Shown: positions 26,646-35,255 of the stretch, piece after piece | How positions within the stretch are numbered: position 1 is the first letter of the stretch | Layout of the letters: every line of letters starts with the position of its first letter | Origin: Terriglobus roseus | GTDB lineage: Bacteria; Acidobacteriota; Terriglobia; Terriglobales; Acidobacteriaceae | Direction of reading: 5' to 3' | Assembly: GCF_900105625.1 (NCBI RefSeq) | Contig: NZ_FNSD01000001.1 | Span: forward strand, 1,860,001 to 1,924,000 | DNA length: 64,000 nt | Notes under the pieces: generated by a model | The model's input: the letters and a program-made list of their open reading frames with translations, nothing else | Databases searched by the model: none | What the model was told of the DNA's origin: nothing | Translations under genes and position numbers: made by a program

Positions 26646-26860
26646 GTATTTGGAGTCGAGCGTCCTCTGGACAAACGGGCGCCTGAAGTCTCACGTTTCA
26701 AGGCCTGGATCGTGTTGGCATCGATGGGATTCGCAGTGCCTCACATGCTCATGAAGCTGAGGAAAACTCGCCGCTTAGAAGTAGCACTTGTGGTGCCCAG
26801 CCAGCATCGTCGCCACCACTTTTGCAACCTCGGCCAACGCCAGTTAGAATCAACCTCGAG

Positions 26861-26936
26861 GCCGACGTAGCTCAGTTGGTAGAGCAGCTGATTCGTAATC
26901 AGCAGGTCAACGGTTCAAGTCCGTTCGTCGGCTCCA
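26861..26936 (+). tRNA. tRNA-Thr(CGT)
   Basis: 76 nt with encoded CCA. Acceptor GCCGACG/CGTCGGC with discriminator T, D-arm GCTCAGTTGGTAGAGC, anticodon stem CTGAT/ATCAG with loop TCGTA giving CGT, T-arm ACGGTTCAAGTCCGT. The frame that runs through it (LVEQLIRNQQVNGSSPF) is a typical false protein from a tRNA. Confidence 0.97.
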
Positions 26937-27251
26937 TTCAGGCCTTGCACCATCGCAGCGCAAACGGTTCATCCCGCAGCGCGCAATCTCGACAGCAAGC
27001 CGATTTCCGCTTCACTTCCCAGTCCACATCCTTCCCATTGACGCGGCCTCTGCGCGGCAAGGCACCGTGGAAAACGCGGCTCGTAACTCTGGCACAACAA
27101 AAAGTATCGATTCAGGTACAAGTTATCCACGAGATTCTGCTTTCTGTGCTTATGAACGTCTTGCAAGCAGGCTGGCGCCGCATCATACTCGGCACATGGT
27201 TGCAGCCCGCGGGGATTTCCCTCGCGGCGCAGGCCTCCAGGAGCACAGACG
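26937..27251. other. Intergenic region before the MerR-TPR gene
   Basis: 315 bp without a supportable gene. It contains one DnaA-box-like TTATCCACG (27123-27131) and the Shine-Dalgarno AGGAG (27239-27243) of the next gene. I see no clear promoter or repeat. Confidence 0.5.
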
Positions 27252-28178
27252 ATGCCGGCAATGACAGCGCCTGTTTCCCTCTACTCGCGGCAGGACGCGG
27301 CGCGCATCCTGCGCGTCCCTGAGAAGCAGATCGCGGCGTGGCAGCGCGCCGGTCTGATCCCTGCCGCCTCAAACAAATTCAGCATCCGCGACCTGGCCGG
27401 CATGCGCAGCCTGCGGGACCTTCGTGAGCAGCGCCTCTCCGTCCGTTCCATACGCTCTTCGGTCGAGGCCATGCAGCGCATCGCGGGCATGGAAGACCCC
27501 TTGCGTGAGGCCGCTCATGTCTCCCGCGGCGCACGGCTGGTCTTCCGCCACAGTGGCGCCCTGCTGGACCCGCTGACGCAACAGCTTGCTTTCGACTTCG
27601 ACGCGCCCCCGCGCCGGGAACTCTCCCTGCTGAAGCGCGAGCCTCCCCGCGAACAGGTTCTGCGCGATCAGGCACAGGCGCAGGAGATCTTTCAGCGCGC
27701 CGTGCAGCTTGAGGAGAAGCCGGAGACACTGGCCGAGGCCGCCGCGCTCTACCTGCAGGTCTTGGAGTTGTGTCCGCGACACGCGCCCGCCTCCATCAAT
27801 CTGGGAACGATCCTTTACAACGACCGCCGCTACACCGAGGCAGAGAAGCGCTACCGCACCGCAGCAGAGATTGACCCGGACTACGCCCTGGCCTTCTTCG
27901 ACCTGGGCAATGTGCTGGACGAGCTACGTCGTCTGCCGGAAGCCATCGCTGCCTATACGCGCGCAATCCAGCTGGTACCGCAATATGCTGATGCGCACTA
28001 CAACCTGGCGCTGGCCTATGAACGCACCGGCGAACGCCGTCGAGCTCTGCGCCATTGGCTCTGCTACGTCCGTCTGGACCCGGTGGGACCCTGGGCGACC
28101 CACGCCCGCATGCAGGCACGCCGAACGCTCGCGACGGAACGCCTGAGCATCGTGACACGCGGCGGCAAACTGGCTTAG
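27252..28178 (+). CDS. MerR-type HTH fused to tetratricopeptide repeats
   Basis: 308 residues. Residues about 10-75 are a MerR-like DNA-binding domain (SLYSRQDAARILRVPEKQIAAW, NKFSIRDLAGMRSLRDLREQR), the usual place for a winged HTH. A linker with PPRRE is followed by about four TPRs at 140-280 (AAALYLQVLELCPRHAPASI, YTEAEKRYRTAAEIDPDYALA, PEAIAAYTRAIQLVPQYADA, ERRRALRHWLCYVRLDP). AGGAG lies 8 bases before the ATG. No metal-binding cysteines of classical MerR sensors are visible, so the TPR part may be the input, sensing a partner protein. Single gene. Confidence 0.88.
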   Translation: MPAMTAPVSLYSRQDAARILRVPEKQIAAWQRAGLIPAASNKFSIRDLAGMRSLRDLREQRLSVRSIRSSVEAMQRIAGMEDPLREAAHVSRGARLVFRHSGALLDPLTQQLAFDFDAPPRRELSLLKREPPREQVLRDQAQAQEIFQRAVQLEEKPETLAEAAALYLQVLELCPRHAPASINLGTILYNDRRYTEAEKRYRTAAEIDPDYALAFFDLGNVLDELRRLPEAIAAYTRAIQLVPQYADAHYNLALAYERTGERRRALRHWLCYVRLDPVGPWATHARMQARRTLATERLSIVTRGGKLA

Positions 28179-28352
28179 CGCGCACCCGTTCCATCCCCAG
28201 CTGGACCGATGCTCAACCTCTTGGTTCCGAGGTGTCTGTTCTGCAGACATTCCGCTCTGCAAGACCGCTCCACGCTGACTTGCCAACACTCCTTCGGTGG
28301 GAATAGAACATCCTCGCAAGTGCAGTCGCAGCGCCGATGGAGGGCGCGCGGT

Positions 28353-28610
28353 ATGTGGCGAGCATCTTCCCTCTTTGGACATACGACCACCGCTGACCAT
28401 CACGCAGCCATGCACATCCAGACCCACGAGCCGACCGACGAGCAGTCCGGCATGTTGGGCGATCACGTCGGACACGGCCTGTGGGGCGAGGCGACGGCCC
28501 TGTGCCATGTCTGCCACGCAGAGTTGCTACCGCACGAGGCAGCAAGCGGGTGCTGCGAAGACAAGGACGCCTGTTGCTGGCGCGCGCTGAGTGAGCGCTG
28601 CTGCTGGTAG
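28353..28610 (+). CDS. Cysteine-rich small protein, copy A
   Basis: 85 residues from ATG 28353, preceded by GGAGGG with an 8-base gap. The second half shows the motif CHVCHAEL-x7-GCC-x5-CC and ends ERCCW, with the last residue Trp. The N-terminal SLFGHTTT matches SLFKHTQP of the next gene, supporting the start. Contains one GDHVGHGLWG segment. Not recognised as any known family; the C-x2-C ... C-C ... C arrangement suggests a zinc- or iron-binding ribbon. Function unknown. Confidence 0.65.
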   Translation: MWRASSLFGHTTTADHHAAMHIQTHEPTDEQSGMLGDHVGHGLWGEATALCHVCHAELLPHEAASGCCEDKDACCWRALSERCCW

Positions 28611-28699
28611 TCGCGGGCAGCAAAAATCTCTGGTCAGTCGATACAAAGCGGCGTTACAACAATGCTCAACGTGTCGGTCACGCCCCGGAGGACGTACCC

Positions 28700-28981
28700 A
28701 TGTCACTCTTCAAGCACACACAGCCTTCGCAACCACGCGGAACGCCGCTGCCGCAGAAGCTGCGCCACTTCGGCCACAGCGTTGGAGACACGGTGCTTCA
28801 TCCGCACATGCCGCAATCTCTGAAGCATCTCGGCCACCAGGTCAGTGAGAGCCTTCTGCATCCGAAACGAACCCGATGCCGCGCCTGCTTTGCAGAACTG
28901 TCACCCGAGGATGTGCCGCTCGGCTGCTGCTCCGACAGCGTGGCCTGCGGTTGCCGGGCGTCATCGGCTCGCTGCTGGTAG
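28700..28981 (+). CDS. Cysteine-rich small protein, copy B
   Basis: 93 residues, ATG with GGAGG upstream. Paralog of the preceding gene: C-terminus CRACFAEL-x7-GCC-x5-CGC ending SARCW. The middle has an internal duplication, GHSVGDTVLHP and GHQVSESLLHP, about 25 residues apart, each a likely amphipathic helix; copy A has only one such unit. No signal peptide. It ends 5 bp before the stop of the convergent SIMPL gene. I do not recognise the family; the conserved cysteine pattern and terminal CW in two copies make it very likely a real gene. Confidence 0.7.
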   Translation: MSLFKHTQPSQPRGTPLPQKLRHFGHSVGDTVLHPHMPQSLKHLGHQVSESLLHPKRTRCRACFAELSPEDVPLGCCSDSVACGCRASSARCW

Positions 28982-28986
28982 ACGGT

Positions 28987-29760
28987 TTACTGCAGGTAGT
29001 AGTCGACTGTCGTGACGACGCGGACCTGCTTCATCACGGTGGAGTCGGCAGATGGGCCACCGCCACCTTCTTCACCGCTCCCAGTGCTCGCAGCCGGCCC
29101 GGCAGCCGAGATGGAAAAGACGCCCTGGTTGGCCGTGCGGATAGCGCCGACGTGGCTGCCCGAGTCCGCGGCAAACCGATCAGCCGATGCTCGCGCATTG
29201 CGCGTGGCTTCCGTGATCATGTCTGGCTTCAAAGCGTTCAGCCCCGTCCACCTGTAGGAAATGCCGGATCCACCGCCGAACTGGTTCCCGCCGACCACAA
29301 TGCCGGCCTGCACCAGGTCTGCCGTGTTCTGGCCCGCGCGCTGCAGCTTGTCGACGTCATGCGTCGTCAGCGTGACAGTCTGCTGCACGATGTAGCGATT
29401 TCTCGCCTGGTTGCCGCCATACTCGTTCGCCTGCGTGTCTGTGACCTGGATCTGGCCGACGGAGACTTCGCTGCCTGAGAAGCCTTGCTTCGCGAAGAAG
29501 TCGACAATCGCCTGCTTGTCGGCCTGGCTCTTCGCGAAGACCGGCGGAAGATCGTTTCCGGCCTCCTTGAAGGCCACATTCCAGATGCCGGTATCAGACT
29601 TCACCGTGCGTTCGACGAGGCCCTTCACGGTGACGTAGCGATCACTGAGCTTGGTCGCCTTAATCTGCGAACCCATGACCCAACCGGCAATGACGAGGCT
29701 GACACCCAGAGTGCCACCAAGCGCAAGTGCCGTCGTTACCAGTGACTTCCGATCGTCCAC
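28987..29760 (-). CDS. SIMPL domain (DUF541) periplasmic protein
   Basis: 257 residues. Uncleaved-type N-terminal membrane helix (SLVTTALALGGTLGVSLVIAGWVMG), then the SIMPL domain from about residue 40 (RYVTVKGLVERTVKSDTGIW ... LKPDMITEATRNARASADRF, SHVGAIRTANQGVFSI). Proteins of this family (for example E. coli YggE) are linked to oxidative-stress and membrane homeostasis, mechanism unclear. A Gly/Ser linker (SGEEGGGGP) precedes the last strand. The gene follows alaS by 20 bp on the same strand, so the two may share a transcript. Confidence 0.87.
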   Translation of the reverse strand: MDDRKSLVTTALALGGTLGVSLVIAGWVMGSQIKATKLSDRYVTVKGLVERTVKSDTGIWNVAFKEAGNDLPPVFAKSQADKQAIVDFFAKQGFSGSEVSVGQIQVTDTQANEYGGNQARNRYIVQQTVTLTTHDVDKLQRAGQNTADLVQAGIVVGGNQFGGGSGISYRWTGLNALKPDMITEATRNARASADRFAADSGSHVGAIRTANQGVFSISAAGPAASTGSGEEGGGGPSADSTVMKQVRVVTTVDYYLQ

Positions 29761-29780: not shown

Positions 29781-32477
29781 CTAGCCGATTAGGTCTCCCA
29801 CTGTAGCACCGGCGCTTGCGAGGGCTGCATCAAGTTGTGAAGGATCGGTGCCGCCTGCCTCTGCGAGGTCTGGTCGTCCACCGCCCTTACCGCCGACCTT
29901 CACTGCGAGCGCACCAACGATCTTGCCTGCCTGCACCGTACCCACAAGATCCTTGGTGACTGCGGCGATCAGTGCAACCTTGCCATCTTCCGTGGCCGCG
30001 CCCAGCACAACGACACCAGAACCGAGGCGGCTACGCAGCGTGTCCGCGAGCGTGCGCATCTGGTTGCGATCAAGACCGATGACCTTCTGCGCAAGCACCT
30101 TGATGCCCTTCACTTCGACGGCCGACTCGGCAGCGTTCTCGCTGGCTGCGGAAGCCGACTTCATGCGGGCCTGGTCCAGCTCGCGGCGCAGCTTCTTGAG
30201 TTCTTCATCCTGCGCATTCAGCTTCGCCTGCAATGCGACTGCCGGATACTCCGTGCTGCCACCGATCAGCGTACCGGCAACCTTGGCAAGATCGAAGTCA
30301 CGACGGAACTCCGCGAGCGAGCCGGTACCGCTTACGGCCTCAACACGCCGGATGCCGCTCGACACCGACGATTCACCGGTCAGCTTGATGAGACCAATCT
30401 CGCCCGTAGCGCCGGTGTGGATACCGCCGCAAAGTTCTGTGGAGAAGTCGCCGATCTTCACGACGCGAACCTTGTCCCCGTACTTCTCACCGAAGAGAGC
30501 GGTTGCCTTGAACTCATTCACTGCCACGTCAATGGGCACATCTACAAAGGTCTCGACCTTCGTGTTGCCCATGACCTCGCGGTTGATGATGTCCTCGATG
30601 TCTTGCAGCTCTTCATCCGCGACCTGCGTGAAGTGCGAGAAGTCGAAGCGGAGGCGCGAACGATTGTTCAACGATCCCGCCTGCTTCACATGCGTGCCCA
30701 GCACCTCGCGCAGCGCGGCATGCAACAGGTGCGTCCCGGTGTGATTCCGGATGGTCGCAGCGCGTTCGGTGCCATCCACTACAGCGTCCAGCGTGTCGCC
30801 GACAGCGATGGGACGGCGTACCGTGACCTTGTGCGCGAAGACGCCCTGCACCGGCTTCGTGCAGCCATGCACGTCAGCCAGCGCGCCGGTGTGGTCGGTC
30901 GGATACAGCCAGCCGGTATCGCCCACCTGGCCGCCCGAGTCCGCGTAGAAGCTGGTGCGATCGAGCACGACCTCGCCCTCATCGCCCGGCATCAGCACAT
31001 TCACGCCTTCGCCGTTCTTCACAAGTGCGAGAACAACCGCATCATCCGCACGCAGCCCGCCGTACCCGAGGAACTGTGTCTTCTCAAGCTCGCGATAGAC
31101 GGGGCTCGCTGTCTTCTGCGAGCCGCCTTTCCACGACGAACGGGCACGAGCCTGCTCCTCTTCCTTGGCACGCTCAAAGCCGACCATGTCGAACTCAACG
31201 CCCGCATCGCGGGCCGCGTCCGTCATGAAGTCCAGCGGCATACCGAAGGTCTCGTACAACGAGAACGCCTGGGCGCCATCCTGCAGGACTTCGTTGGTCA
31301 TGCGAACGAGACCAAGCTGCAGCGTCCGAGCGAACTGCTGCTCTTCCTGCAGCACAACCTTCGCAACGCGATCCGCAACATCCGCGAGCTCGGGATATGC
31401 AACCTGCATCTCATCGCGAACGGCGTAGACCATCTGGTGCATGAAGGGCTGTTCCTGCCCAAGCAGACGTCCATGACGGATGCCGCGACGGATGATCTTG
31501 CGCAGAACATACTCCCGCTGACCGTTCCCCGGAACAACACCATCGGCGATCAGGAAGGTCGCGGCGCGTGCATGGTCAGCAATGATGCGCAGGCTGGCCG
31601 CCCCCTTCAGATCGACAACCGCACCCTCTTCGGCGGTGAGCGCCTGGAAGCCGGTCAACTCGATCGCCTTCGCGATCAGCGGCACGAACAGATCGCTCTG
31701 GTAGTTCGACAGCTTGCCCTGCAGTACGCAGGCAATACGCTCCAGGCCCATGCCGGTGTCGATGCTGGGCTTCGGCAGCGGCAGCAACTCCACCGCGCCA
31801 CCCGCACTTACCTGCCGGTCAAATTGCATGAAGACGAGGTTCCAGATCTCCATGTAGCGCTGGTCGTCTTCGCCGAAGGGCTTGTCTTCGCCGGTCTCGC
31901 TCGCCTCAAGGCCCAGATCGAAGTAGATCTCGGAGCACGGGCCGCAGGGGCCGGTCTCGCCCATCTGCCAGAAGTTGTCCTTCGCACCCAATTCGTAGAT
32001 GCGATCCTTCGGCACGCCCGCGGCCAGCCAGTACTGCTCGGCCTCGTCGTCGCGCGGGGTCTGCGCGTCGCCTTCGAAGATGGTGACGTAAAGCCGATCC
32101 TTGTCGATCCCGAACCAGTCCGGCGACGTCAGCAATTCCCACGCGAAGGCGATGGCATCCTGCTTGAAGTAATCGCCAAAGCTGAAGTTTCCCAGCATCT
32201 CGAAGAAGGTGTGGTGGCGACGGGTGAAGCCAACGTTTTCCAGATCGTTGTGCTTGCCGCCCGCGCGGACGCACTTCTGCGAGGTGGTGGCGCGGTTATA
32301 GGCACGCTGCTCCGCTCCCAGGAAGACGTCCTTGAACTGGTTCATGCCGGCGTTGGCGAACAGCAGCGTTGGATCGTTGTGAGGGACGAGCGATGACGAG
32401 TGGACACGGCGGTGTCCCTTCTCCTCAAAAAACCGCAGAAAATCTTCGCGAATCTGGCTTCCAGTTAAGTGGCGCAT
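29781..32477 (-). CDS. alaS: Alanyl-tRNA synthetase
   Basis: Charges tRNA-Ala and edits Ser/Gly mischarging. 898 residues, full length. N-terminal class II core begins [18 protein letters not shown] with the [15 protein letters not shown] motif 2 region; the tRNA-recognition and anticodon-free helical part follows. The editing domain carries HTGTH (His579, His583) and [14 protein letters not shown] (Cys and His zinc ligands). The DHHA1/C-Ala domain ends the protein ([16 protein letters not shown]). Its start is not preceded by a strong Shine-Dalgarno; TTTATAGGCC precedes the ATG. Confidence 0.98.
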
Positions 32478-32826: not shown

Positions 32827-34008
32827 TTGTTGGAGCACAGGACAGTTTTCGTGATGCAAGCGGCTCTGCTCATCTTGTTGAGCGGTGTGATCCTGCTCGC
32901 GTTTCGGGACTATCGTCGGCAGCGTGGCGATCGAAGCGCGCCGTGGCTGGTGGCGGCTTACCTGACCAACGGCGTCGCACTTGCCCTGCTGGCCCTGGAA
33001 CAGACGCCACATCCTCGACTGACGATCGTTTTGGGCAACGTCCTGCTGCTCGCATTTCCAGGCCTTGCCTGTCGCGCACTCTCTGAGGCGACCGGTCAGC
33101 CACGCAGTCGAGCATGGATCACTCTGCTTGCGCTGGACGTTGTGACAGTCGCTGCCTTCTCCTTCTTCACCTTCGTGCATCCGAGCTGGATGCTGCGGAG
33201 CTGGGCGGCCGGCATCGTGACCGCGGCGATGTACGGCTGGCTCATCTTGCTGGTGCTGCGGTCAGAGGAAGAGGTGATTCAGCCCGCAGTCAAGACCATG
33301 GCGTGGCTGTTTGCATTGCATATCGCGGTGAATGCTGCACGGTTGATCGTGTGGCGCTATACCGGCACGCAGCTCTGGTTCAGCGGCATGAATATACTCA
33401 CCATCGGCGGCGTCGCCCTGTGTCCCGCCTGGATGGACAGCCTTCGGAAGCACGAAAGCATGGAGCGCACGGCCATGTCCGATCCATTGACGGGGCTCTA
33501 TAACCGTCGTGCGCTGGACGCTGTTGGTGTCTCCGAGTTACGCCTGGCGACGGCGGCCGGCCAGCCATCGTCCGCACTGATGTTGGACGTGGACAACTTC
33601 AAGGAGATCAACGATACCCAGGGCCATGGTGCTGGCGACGCCGCGCTGCGCGCCATCAGCGGCATTCTGCGGAGCGTTTGCCCCATAAGCATGCGCATTG
33701 GCGGCGATGAGTTTCTTGCCCTGCTGCCTGGGGCGGATGAACACGCAGCAGGCATCGTGGAATCGCAGGTCCGAATGGCGCTTGCCGCGCTTGCGCTGCA
33801 AACACCATGGGGCGAACCTTATATCTTGACTGTGAGCATCGGCTCAGCGACGCTACGCGGCGCCACCACGACCCTCCCCAACCTGATGCACGCCAGCGAT
33901 GTCCTGCTGTACCAGGAAAAACAAGCGAGAGCGATGCGCGGGAACCATGGATCCGATTCCTGGCTGACCCGGCAGGACCGTCAGAGTGTTATTACTTCGG
34001 CCCACTAG
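32827..34008 (+). CDS. Membrane diguanylate cyclase (GGDEF), copy 1
   Basis: 393 residues. N-terminal half has about six hydrophobic helices (VMQAALLILLSGVILLAF to TIGGVALCPAWMD) as an uncharacterised membrane input domain. The C-terminal GGDEF domain starts at MSDPLTGLYNRRALD; active site GGDEF at 292-296. The RxxD inhibitory site expected 5 residues before it is missing (SVCPISMRI), so product inhibition may be lost. TTG start at 32827 with AAGGA 7 bases upstream; an adjacent TTG at 32830 is also possible. Tandem paralog of the next gene. Confidence 0.92.
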   Translation: MLEHRTVFVMQAALLILLSGVILLAFRDYRRQRGDRSAPWLVAAYLTNGVALALLALEQTPHPRLTIVLGNVLLLAFPGLACRALSEATGQPRSRAWITLLALDVVTVAAFSFFTFVHPSWMLRSWAAGIVTAAMYGWLILLVLRSEEEVIQPAVKTMAWLFALHIAVNAARLIVWRYTGTQLWFSGMNILTIGGVALCPAWMDSLRKHESMERTAMSDPLTGLYNRRALDAVGVSELRLATAAGQPSSALMLDVDNFKEINDTQGHGAGDAALRAISGILRSVCPISMRIGGDEFLALLPGADEHAAGIVESQVRMALAALALQTPWGEPYILTVSIGSATLRGATTTLPNLMHASDVLLYQEKQARAMRGNHGSDSWLTRQDRQSVITSAH

Positions 34009-34076: not shown

Positions 34077-35255
34077 ATGGACCGTCGAACCCTTTTTTCA
34101 ATGCAGGCCGGCCTGTTGCTCTTTCTGGGCGGCGTGATTCTGCTCGCTTTTCACCGTCAACGCGGCCAGAAACGCGACAAGGGATCCGTATGGTTTGCCG
34201 CCGCTTACCTTTGCTCGGGCCTGGGACTTGCGCTGCAATCGGAACGGGATGTCATTCCGCCTTTCTTCGCGATCGTCCTTGGAAACTTCTTCTTCCTGCT
34301 CTTCGGTGTTCTCGCGAACTACGCCGTGTGCGCAACCACGCGCCAGCGGAGCCGGACCTGGACGTACCTGCTTGCACTGAACTTCGCTACCGTCGCGAAC
34401 TTCACCTACTACACCTACTGGCAGCCGAACCTGTTTCTGCGTGTGATGGAAGCGGGCGCCGTGATTGTGCTGATGCACCTGGCACTGATCGTCGCGCTGC
34501 TGCGGGTCCGTGAGCGCGTCATTCAACCAGCGATGCGCAGCATGGCACTGCTGCTGGGGCTGCACTCCTTCTTTGCCCTTGCACGAATGTCGATGGTCGT
34601 GCAGCGACGCAACGCCGATGTTCTGCTTTCCTGGATCGGCGTGATCACCATCGCAGGCCTGGCGCTCTGCTACCTGTGGATGGACAGCCTGCGGGTCCAC
34701 GCGGAGTTGGAACAGAGCGCCATGACGGACCCGTTAACCGGGCTCTACAATCGGCGAATCCTGGAAGTGACTGCTATCCATGAAATTCAGCGGGCGGCCC
34801 GCAGAGGACTGCCCTGCTCCGCGATAATGCTGGACGTCGATCGCTTCAAGGTCATCAACGACGAACTGGGGCACGCCGCCGGCGACTCATCCCTGAGTGC
34901 GGTCGCTGGGGCTCTGCAGGCAAGCCTGCGGGCGTCCGACATCGCAACGCGCCTGGGTGGCGACGAGTTTTTTGTCCTGCTGCCGGGCGCTGATGAGGCC
35001 TCCGCCGGGCTGGTTGTAGCGCGTATCCGAGCTGCCATCGCCGCCCTGAGGTTGCAGACGATGGGCGGAGAGAGTTTCTCCGTCTCAGTCAGTGTGGGCC
35101 AGGTAACGCAGCGCGGCACAAAGATGACCGTGGAAGATCTGCTGCATGCCAGCGACATCATGTTGTACCGCGAGAAGCAGCTCAGCCGCTCCCGGGGCTT
35201 TGGTAGCGGGACACGTCAGGCGGGCGGAGCCCAGGTCCACCCCTCCAACGCGTAG
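34077..35255 (+). CDS. Membrane diguanylate cyclase (GGDEF), copy 2
   Basis: 392 residues, same architecture as the preceding gene: aligned from the first residues (FSMQAGLLLFLGGVILLAF) through MTDPLTGLYNRR. Active site GGDEF at 294-298. The inhibitory site RxxD is present (RASD, Arg285 and Asp288), unlike in the paralog. Makes c-di-GMP from 2 GTP at the membrane. It starts 68 bp after copy 1, and its last 40 bases overlap the 3' end of the convergent DUF429-like gene. Confidence 0.92.
   Translation: MDRRTLFSMQAGLLLFLGGVILLAFHRQRGQKRDKGSVWFAAAYLCSGLGLALQSERDVIPPFFAIVLGNFFFLLFGVLANYAVCATTRQRSRTWTYLLALNFATVANFTYYTYWQPNLFLRVMEAGAVIVLMHLALIVALLRVRERVIQPAMRSMALLLGLHSFFALARMSMVVQRRNADVLLSWIGVITIAGLALCYLWMDSLRVHAELEQSAMTDPLTGLYNRRILEVTAIHEIQRAARRGLPCSAIMLDVDRFKVINDELGHAAGDSSLSAVAGALQASLRASDIATRLGGDEFFVLLPGADEASAGLVVARIRAAIAALRLQTMGGESFSVSVSVGQVTQRGTKMTVEDLLHASDIMLYREKQLSRSRGFGSGTRQAGGAQVHPSNA

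Follow-up and report, generated by a model that had tools for sequence, protein, structure and literature searches.

The described systems closest to the cysteine-rich microproteins reported here are the treble-clef zinc finger, the bacterial metallothioneins, the YHS/TRASH domain, and a CPxCGMxLEP segment carried by long YHS-bearing Terriglobus proteins. The helix of a treble clef usually bears a close pair of cysteines, and the metallothionein SmtA has a Cys-Cys pair downstream of a CxxC motif, as does the family described below. The treble-clef finger consists of a zinc knuckle, a loop, a hairpin, and a helix; the knuckle and the start of the helix each provide two ligands (PMC4999995). Pseudomonas metallothioneins are likewise His-rich and have a disordered tail (PMC7387436).

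Two adjacent genes, A and B, lie in a 64,000-nucleotide stretch of Terriglobus roseus DNA, which in its whole length we call the window. The family analyzed here comprises eight members: A and B of the window, A and B of T. roseus DSM 18391, and one protein each from genomes G031, G095, G125, and G130. We placed this family in none of the YHS, CPxCGM, and metallothionein groups because no model matched and because controls reached the alignment scores. Like a treble clef, the family has a CxxC near short strands and then a helix with a further Cys, as predicted by low-confidence models; unlike a treble clef, it gave no fold match, and it has 13 residues between the CxxC and the next invariant Cys and five between the ensuing two core cysteines. 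By eye, it shares with YHS/TRASH (PF04945) a Cys knuckle followed by a hydrophobic residue and a proline, downstream of which come C-C or C-S and one more Cys, but PF04945 was not listed for any of the eight members at E values up to 10, and hhalign against 15 YHS copies from the genus scored 13.69 over 13 columns, not clearly above controls (11 of 120 fully permuted controls and 1 of 120 with Cys fixed scored at least as high). YHS matches themselves occurred in 14 of 19 genus genomes, in open frames of 566-931 amino acids. The CPxCGMxLEP segment has C-x2-C-x3-L-x-P in common with the family, but only 11 columns aligned, with a score of 15.12 that 3 of 120 controls in one set and 8 of 120 in the other matched or exceeded. 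Alignment to a mixed target (mostly the CPxCGM segment plus its downstream sequence) scored 17.79, a value that none of 150 controls attained in either of two sets; this leaned toward a knuckle likeness, and the target being a mixture, the result was not used.

Bacterial metallothioneins (PF02069; SmtA and Pseudomonas metallothionein) resemble the family in being small and rich in Cys and His, but the family has a long arm and many invariant non-Cys residues, and PF02069 was not listed for any of the eight members at E values up to 10, where HMMER filters drop most matches above about 0.1. The same model matched 0 of 19 Terriglobus genomes at E values up to 0.001; as a positive control, it picked out one of 14 well-known genomes, that of Synechococcus elongatus. 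The earlier note on this DNA, made from the letters alone, knew of no family with this pattern; the libraries bear it out, with nothing meaningful in Pfam, NCBIfam, PHROGs, PADLOC, or the PDB. The first four had no hit to A or B; across the eight members, each hit involved a single member and was no stronger than E 0.053. PDB sequence matches to apolipophorin III (E 0.17 and 0.36; helical arm), a phage hub protein (0.33), ribosomal eL40 (1.2), and antibody chains (0.74 to 1.4) were judged to be chance. The titles and abstract openings of the literature searched made no mention of the family.

Genes A and B

Genes A and B are arranged head to tail on the plus strand with 89 nt between them (Table 1), at exactly the coordinates first proposed. 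Small genes such as these are easily overlooked in annotation. Searching the whole genome of origin with B recovered A at E 1.4e-4, and on this similarity the two are diverged paralogues. Both copies contain the C-terminal pattern C-x2-C-x-A-E-L-x7-G-C-C-x5-C, the RC(C)W ends, and the N-terminal SLF[GK]HT reported in the earlier note; widening the pattern to [AV]EL and G[CY]C was needed by relatives only. The ribosome sites described there as good are likewise present, and GGAGG precedes all eight family genes. A longer in-frame open reading frame for A opens at 28209 and is not favored over the ATG at 28353.

Table 1. Features of the A/B locus, in window positions
Feature	Coordinates	Strand	Remarks
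MerR-TPR gene	27252-28178		Upstream of A
Promoter-like element of A	28282..28309	+	GCCAA-N17-TAGAAC; form resembles that before other members; tentative
GGAGG ribosome site of A	28339..28343	+	9 nt 5' of ATG
Gene A	28353..28610	+	85 aa, C terminus RCCW; start ATG 28353; the T. roseus DSM 18391 copy agrees in start, length, and ribosome site
Conserved C-terminal Cys module of A	28494..28607	+	From the C-terminal profile alignment (A3)
Promoter-like element of B	28633..28660	+	GTCAG-N17-TACAAC; weak in the window, exact in T. roseus DSM 18391 B; tentative
GGAGG ribosome site of B	28687..28691	+	8 nt 5' of ATG
Gene B	28700..28981	+	93 aa, C terminus RCW; two GHxVxxxxLHP units within the His-rich arm
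Conserved C-terminal Cys module of B	28868..28978	+	From the A3 alignment; best-modelled portion of B
SIMPL gene	28987-29760		Convergent to B; B ends 5 nt away
alaS	29781-32477		Beyond the SIMPL gene

The GHxVxxxxLHP units had been counted as two in B and one in A. B indeed has two, but the unit claimed for A is absent, only a degenerate GDHVGHGLWG being found there. From these comparisons the repeat is a labile trait of B and not a signature common to both copies, because A lacks the unit, the strict form is absent from the remaining seven of the eight members, and in B of T. roseus DSM 18391 one loose unit survives while an in-frame gap of 12 bases falls at the second.

Both genes are present in unchanged order in the soil strain T. 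roseus DSM 18391 (NC_018014.1), where the B orthologue is 75% identical. Between the two genomes, A has a dN of 0.109, a dS of 0.983, and a dN/dS of 0.11, and B has a dN of 0.134, a dS of 1.070, and a dN/dS of 0.13; the single-copy genes of G031 and G095 give a dN/dS of 0.17. Differences at codon positions 1, 2, and 3 number 11, 9, and 30 in A and 12, 9, and 40 in B. A has no indel and B a single one of 12 bases, while gaps in the flanking DNA have other lengths. Tested as protein-coding genes, both show purifying selection in frame. That they are chance open reading frames, a reading favored only by their small size and the lack of a known family, can be practically dismissed: third-position bias, the frame-preserving gap, and matches in six genomes refute it at the sequence level. 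Judged in this way, A and B are real genes that encode conserved proteins and evolve under purifying selection. A run of about 54 bases at the start of A (window 28328-28381), synonymous sites included, is identical to that of T. roseus DSM 18391. Within the first 11 codons 6 of 7 fourfold sites are conserved, compared with 13 of 24 in the remainder; a constraint on initiation at the RNA level may account for this, although the counts are low.

Occurrence and ancestry of the family

The earlier note proposed a homology search and considered that the pattern might have no homologs. Relatives were found in T. roseus DSM 18391 and four more Terriglobus genomes; an absence of homologs is excluded. 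Profile A1, built from six rows (window, T. roseus DSM 18391, G031, and G095; G125 and G130 were left out), matched 6 of the 19 Terriglobus genomes searched, with two proteins each in the window genome (G000) and T. roseus DSM 18391 (taken to be G123) and one each in the other four. Among these, G125 (E 2.9e-34) and G130 (E 9.9e-27) were thus detected with a profile that did not contain them. A single-sequence scan of genome contigs, which reaches close relatives only, also found T. roseus DSM 18391.

We extended the searches to wider samples of the family, phylum, and class, which overlap. Across 398 family genomes, the known six stood out with A1 (E 9.9e-27 or better). The other five of the 11 matching genomes were rejected as weak (E 9.3e-4 to 0.0091); three of these five matches had internal stops, and none extended past position 81 of 86. 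The 37-position C-terminal profile A3 recovered four known carriers among 396 phylum genomes, plus one weak partial match (one of five matching genomes) that spanned only 25 of the 37 positions. The same profile matched 15 of 399 class genomes: four were known carriers, and the other eleven gave weak partial matches, at E 1.2e-4 to 0.0089 over 17 to 30 of the 37 positions, with internal stops in four (G896, G780, G025, and G856). A 120-genome scan likewise gave weak matches outside the genus in 6 of 9 matching genomes (E 2.7e-4 to 0.0096); internal stops interrupt four of these six matches. At most 13 candidates per genome were scored in the 398-genome scan and at most 19 in the 396- and 399-genome scans, and very weak relatives could escape. 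Six-frame profile searches within 1.5 kb of alaS, at 19 loci of 18 genomes, gave beyond the known carriers only matches of E 0.41 or weaker with A3 and 0.12 or weaker with profile A2; the T. roseus DSM 18391 flank was too short to reach its genes. Viral contigs gave no family match in two scans (one with B, one with A3), plasmids gave none to the G031 protein, and phages searched with B gave only two records of one phage at E 0.6. Together, these searches suggest that the family is so far confined to some Terriglobus species.

The carriers are neighbors in trees of the alanyl-tRNA synthetase AlaS. In a midpoint-rooted tree of 17 genomes, the six carriers and G134 formed one group (support 0.993). 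With G133 added (18 genomes), the carriers, G134, and G133 split from the other ten with support of 0.985, and G133 paired with G134 (0.949); the midpoint root fell inside the eight and no outgroup was included, so this split is compatible both with the eight as a clade and with the ten as losers of the gene. G128 gave no AlaS match and stands outside both trees. These placements fit one origin followed by loss in the G133/G134 line. G133 and G134 are drafts, 98% and 93% complete, and an assembly gap is a possible explanation for the missing family gene. In G133, alaS itself was matched as two pieces in separate open pieces (G133:C89:6235-7220; L052 and L053), as a frameshift or an assembly error would produce. 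In the tree of the family, a long branch with support of 100 leads to A, and the closest neighbor of B is the G130 protein; with eight short sequences, this tree gives no date for the A/B duplication.

A more far-reaching proposal is that the family was born within the genus: a new small metal-binding fold (a CxxC hairpin, a G-x-C-x-D-x2-A-C helix, and a Cys-aromatic end) would have arisen near the 3' end of alaS in Terriglobus, come under strong selection, and been duplicated into two specialized copies, each with its own promoter. We regard this full scenario as rather unlikely.

The cysteine core and its possible roles

All eight proteins share the core C-x2-C-x2-E-L-x-P-x5-G-x-C-x-D-x2-A-C-x2-R-A-x-S-x2-C, followed by a terminal Trp (A and B proteins) or Phe (the other four). 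In B numbering, the residues invariant in 8 of 8 are M1, T7, C60, C63, E66, L67, P69, G75, C77, D79, A82, C83, R86, A87, S89, and C92; the module thus combines five cysteines (C-x2-C-x13-C-x5-C-x8-C) with nine non-Cys residues (E, L, P, G, D, A, R, A, and S). Position 76 is Cys except for Tyr in G031, position 85 is Cys except for Trp in A, and A has one further Cys before its aromatic end. The N-terminal arm is His-rich and variable, including in length. The proteins, of 85-96 amino acids, have 8-13 His and 6-8 Cys each, with no Cys before residue 51. Hydropathy revealed no hydrophobic stretch in the eight proteins (maximum 19-residue mean of 0.40-0.86); nothing in it points to export, and the proteins are probably cytosolic. 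The best 18-residue helical moment was 0.46-0.50 in six of the eight proteins and 0.26 and 0.29 in the two A proteins; because it is low in both of these, an amphipathic arm does not appear to be general.

AlphaFold2 models built from the eight family sequences were weak and unlike each other (mean pLDDT 56 for B and 55 for the G095 protein; pTM 0.32 and 0.26). In the B model, the arm fell below a pLDDT of 50, while residues 51-60, 61-70, 71-80, and 81-90 reached 68, 84, 82, and 71, with bridge residues at 59 and 66 and a helix at 80-87. The G095 model placed strands at 52-53 and 60-61 around the CxxC and helices at 63-68 and 74-81 at a pLDDT of 55-70, and an arm helix at 17-30 under 50. Foldseek with the G095 model gave 0 hits, and comparison of the B model with three chains gave 0 of 3 at Z 2 or more. 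A helical protein, as the earlier note supposed, fits at most the arm and the C-terminal helix of these low-confidence models.

Metal binding by the family is plausible, because the five cysteines are invariant in 8 of 8 and because the CxxC lies between short strands ahead of a helix in the low-confidence models; our own estimate is about two in three. The reading we favor, with a probability of about 0.5, is that A and B arose by duplication and divergence within a small-protein family of Terriglobus, probably cytosolic, whose Cys module holds one metal ion, most likely zinc, in a buffering or handover role or as an adaptor. The CxxC and two cysteines just before and within the next helix (C60, C63, C77, and C83) would hold the ion in an arrangement akin to a knuckle-plus-helix zinc finger, while C92, C76, C85, and the His arm would supply additional ligands or a surface for contacts. 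With less confidence, we propose that the protein buffers or hands over the metal, or that the metal-stabilized module links to a partner as an adaptor, with the role divided between A and B. Against this reading stand the weak and differing models, the lack of a fold match, YHS and CPxCGM alignments not above controls, and nine neighbor proteins scanned (seven in the window, two in G095) with no metal transporter or metal sensor among them; in addition, the last two cysteines of the putative four-Cys site are six apart, unlike the close pair usual in a treble-clef helix.

The same evidence bears on other roles. Were the module a binder of protein or nucleic acid, with a purely structural metal and an arm that contacts a membrane surface or a partner, the invariant non-Cys residues and the helical moment of the arm, which reaches 0.50 among six proteins, would be expected; yet the A proteins have a low moment, and the only constantly adjacent gene is alaS, in convergent orientation. 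We consider such an adaptor or regulator possible but lean against it. A metallothionein-like store, in which Cys and His form a multimetal cluster that detoxifies zinc, cadmium, or copper, would suit the small size, the 6-8 Cys, and the 8-13 His, as well as the likeness to the Pseudomonas proteins, also His-rich and with a disordered tail (PMC7387436); with PF02069 found in none of the 19 genus genomes at E values up to 0.001, replacement is conceivable. The nine equally invariant non-Cys residues are nevertheless more typical of a fold or binding surface, no PF02069 match was listed for the eight members at E values up to 10 within the HMMER filters, and the family occurs in only six of the 19 genomes; we judge a store of this kind improbable. 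The variable front, conserved Cys-rich end, and fixed aromatic last residue also recall a peptide precursor, its arm a leader and its end a modified or oxidized core (RiPP-like or a secreted disulfide peptide), but the nine neighbor proteins scanned included no modification enzyme, protease, or exporter, and the proteins lack a signal-like hydrophobic stretch, which leaves this origin very unlikely.

The family adds a conserved group of microproteins that is restricted to one genus, has a defined invariant Cys core, and went unmatched in the libraries searched. Should it bind metal, it would be a compact metalloprotein that arose and duplicated within one genus; should it not, the invariant core points to a partner.

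Neighboring genes and upstream elements

All six carriers have the family gene (B in the two-copy genomes) on the 3' side of alaS in convergent orientation, at a distance from the alaS stop of about 0.3 kb in G125 and G130, 0.7 kb in G031 and G095, 0.8 kb in the window, and 1.6 kb in T. roseus DSM 18391. alaS is the constant neighbor of the family, as judged from these maps, yet convergence gives no functional link. In G095, a DUF1508 gene (L025:7420-7752) lies between alaS and the microprotein gene, and a similar open reading frame occurs near the gene of G031. On the far side, the next gene found in G031 and G130 is a divergent AMIN-amidase gene; another open reading frame intervenes in G095 and G125, and in the window and T. 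roseus DSM 18391 the AMIN-amidase gene is about 4 kb off with other genes between.

A conserved linkage to the MerR-TPR or SIMPL genes, which the first reading of the sequence had raised, did not hold up. Comparing 15-16 kb stretches with simple gene picking, we found MerR-TPR beside A only in the window and T. roseus DSM 18391 and 4-5 kb off in G031 and G125; SIMPL was not matched in the stretches of the other four carriers and outside the window occurs only in T. roseus DSM 18391. The MerR-TPR, SIMPL, and AlaS proteins of that strain are 94%, 97%, and 96% identical to those of the window. Its open reading frame between the DUF6599 and MerR-TPR genes (L028:9631-9939) opens with direct repeats of about 19 residues (EPTNGLEPFALRVCEALM).

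An element close to GCCAA-N17-TACAAC, with a spacing of exactly 17, lies 35 to 63 nt 5' of the start in all eight family genes. Of its 11 positions, none is mismatched in G031, G095, G125, and T. roseus DSM 18391 B, one in both A genes, and two in window B and G130. In 5,000 composition-preserving shuffles per region, p was at most 0.0004 for the six genes with 0-1 mismatches and 0.011 and 0.014 for window B and G130, values that flatter the motif, which was picked after viewing all eight regions, several of them kin by descent. As background, 9 of 914 window tiles of 140 nt had at most two mismatches and 75 had at most three. A sigma-70 scan of 28100-29100 returned no promoter. The element tentatively fits a promoter for each copy. 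GCCAA-N17-TASAAC as the mark of a genome-wide regulon was rejected, with 7 exact matches in the genome of origin against 3 for the reversed control; of the six other exact matches, the one inspected was inside a long open frame.

Two further features of the window lie outside the A/B locus. Upstream, a tRNA gene occupies 26861-26933 on the plus strand (Rfam, 74.2 bits), and the open reading frame spanning it (26822-27322) is probably a spurious reading of the tRNA. Downstream of alaS, 32827-34008 and 34077-35255 (plus strand) encode adjacent related proteins, the first of which, the only one scanned, has a GGDEF domain. The two have separate best matches in T. roseus DSM 18391 and one common open reading frame as match in the other four carriers, which, on best matches only, suggests a tandem duplication.
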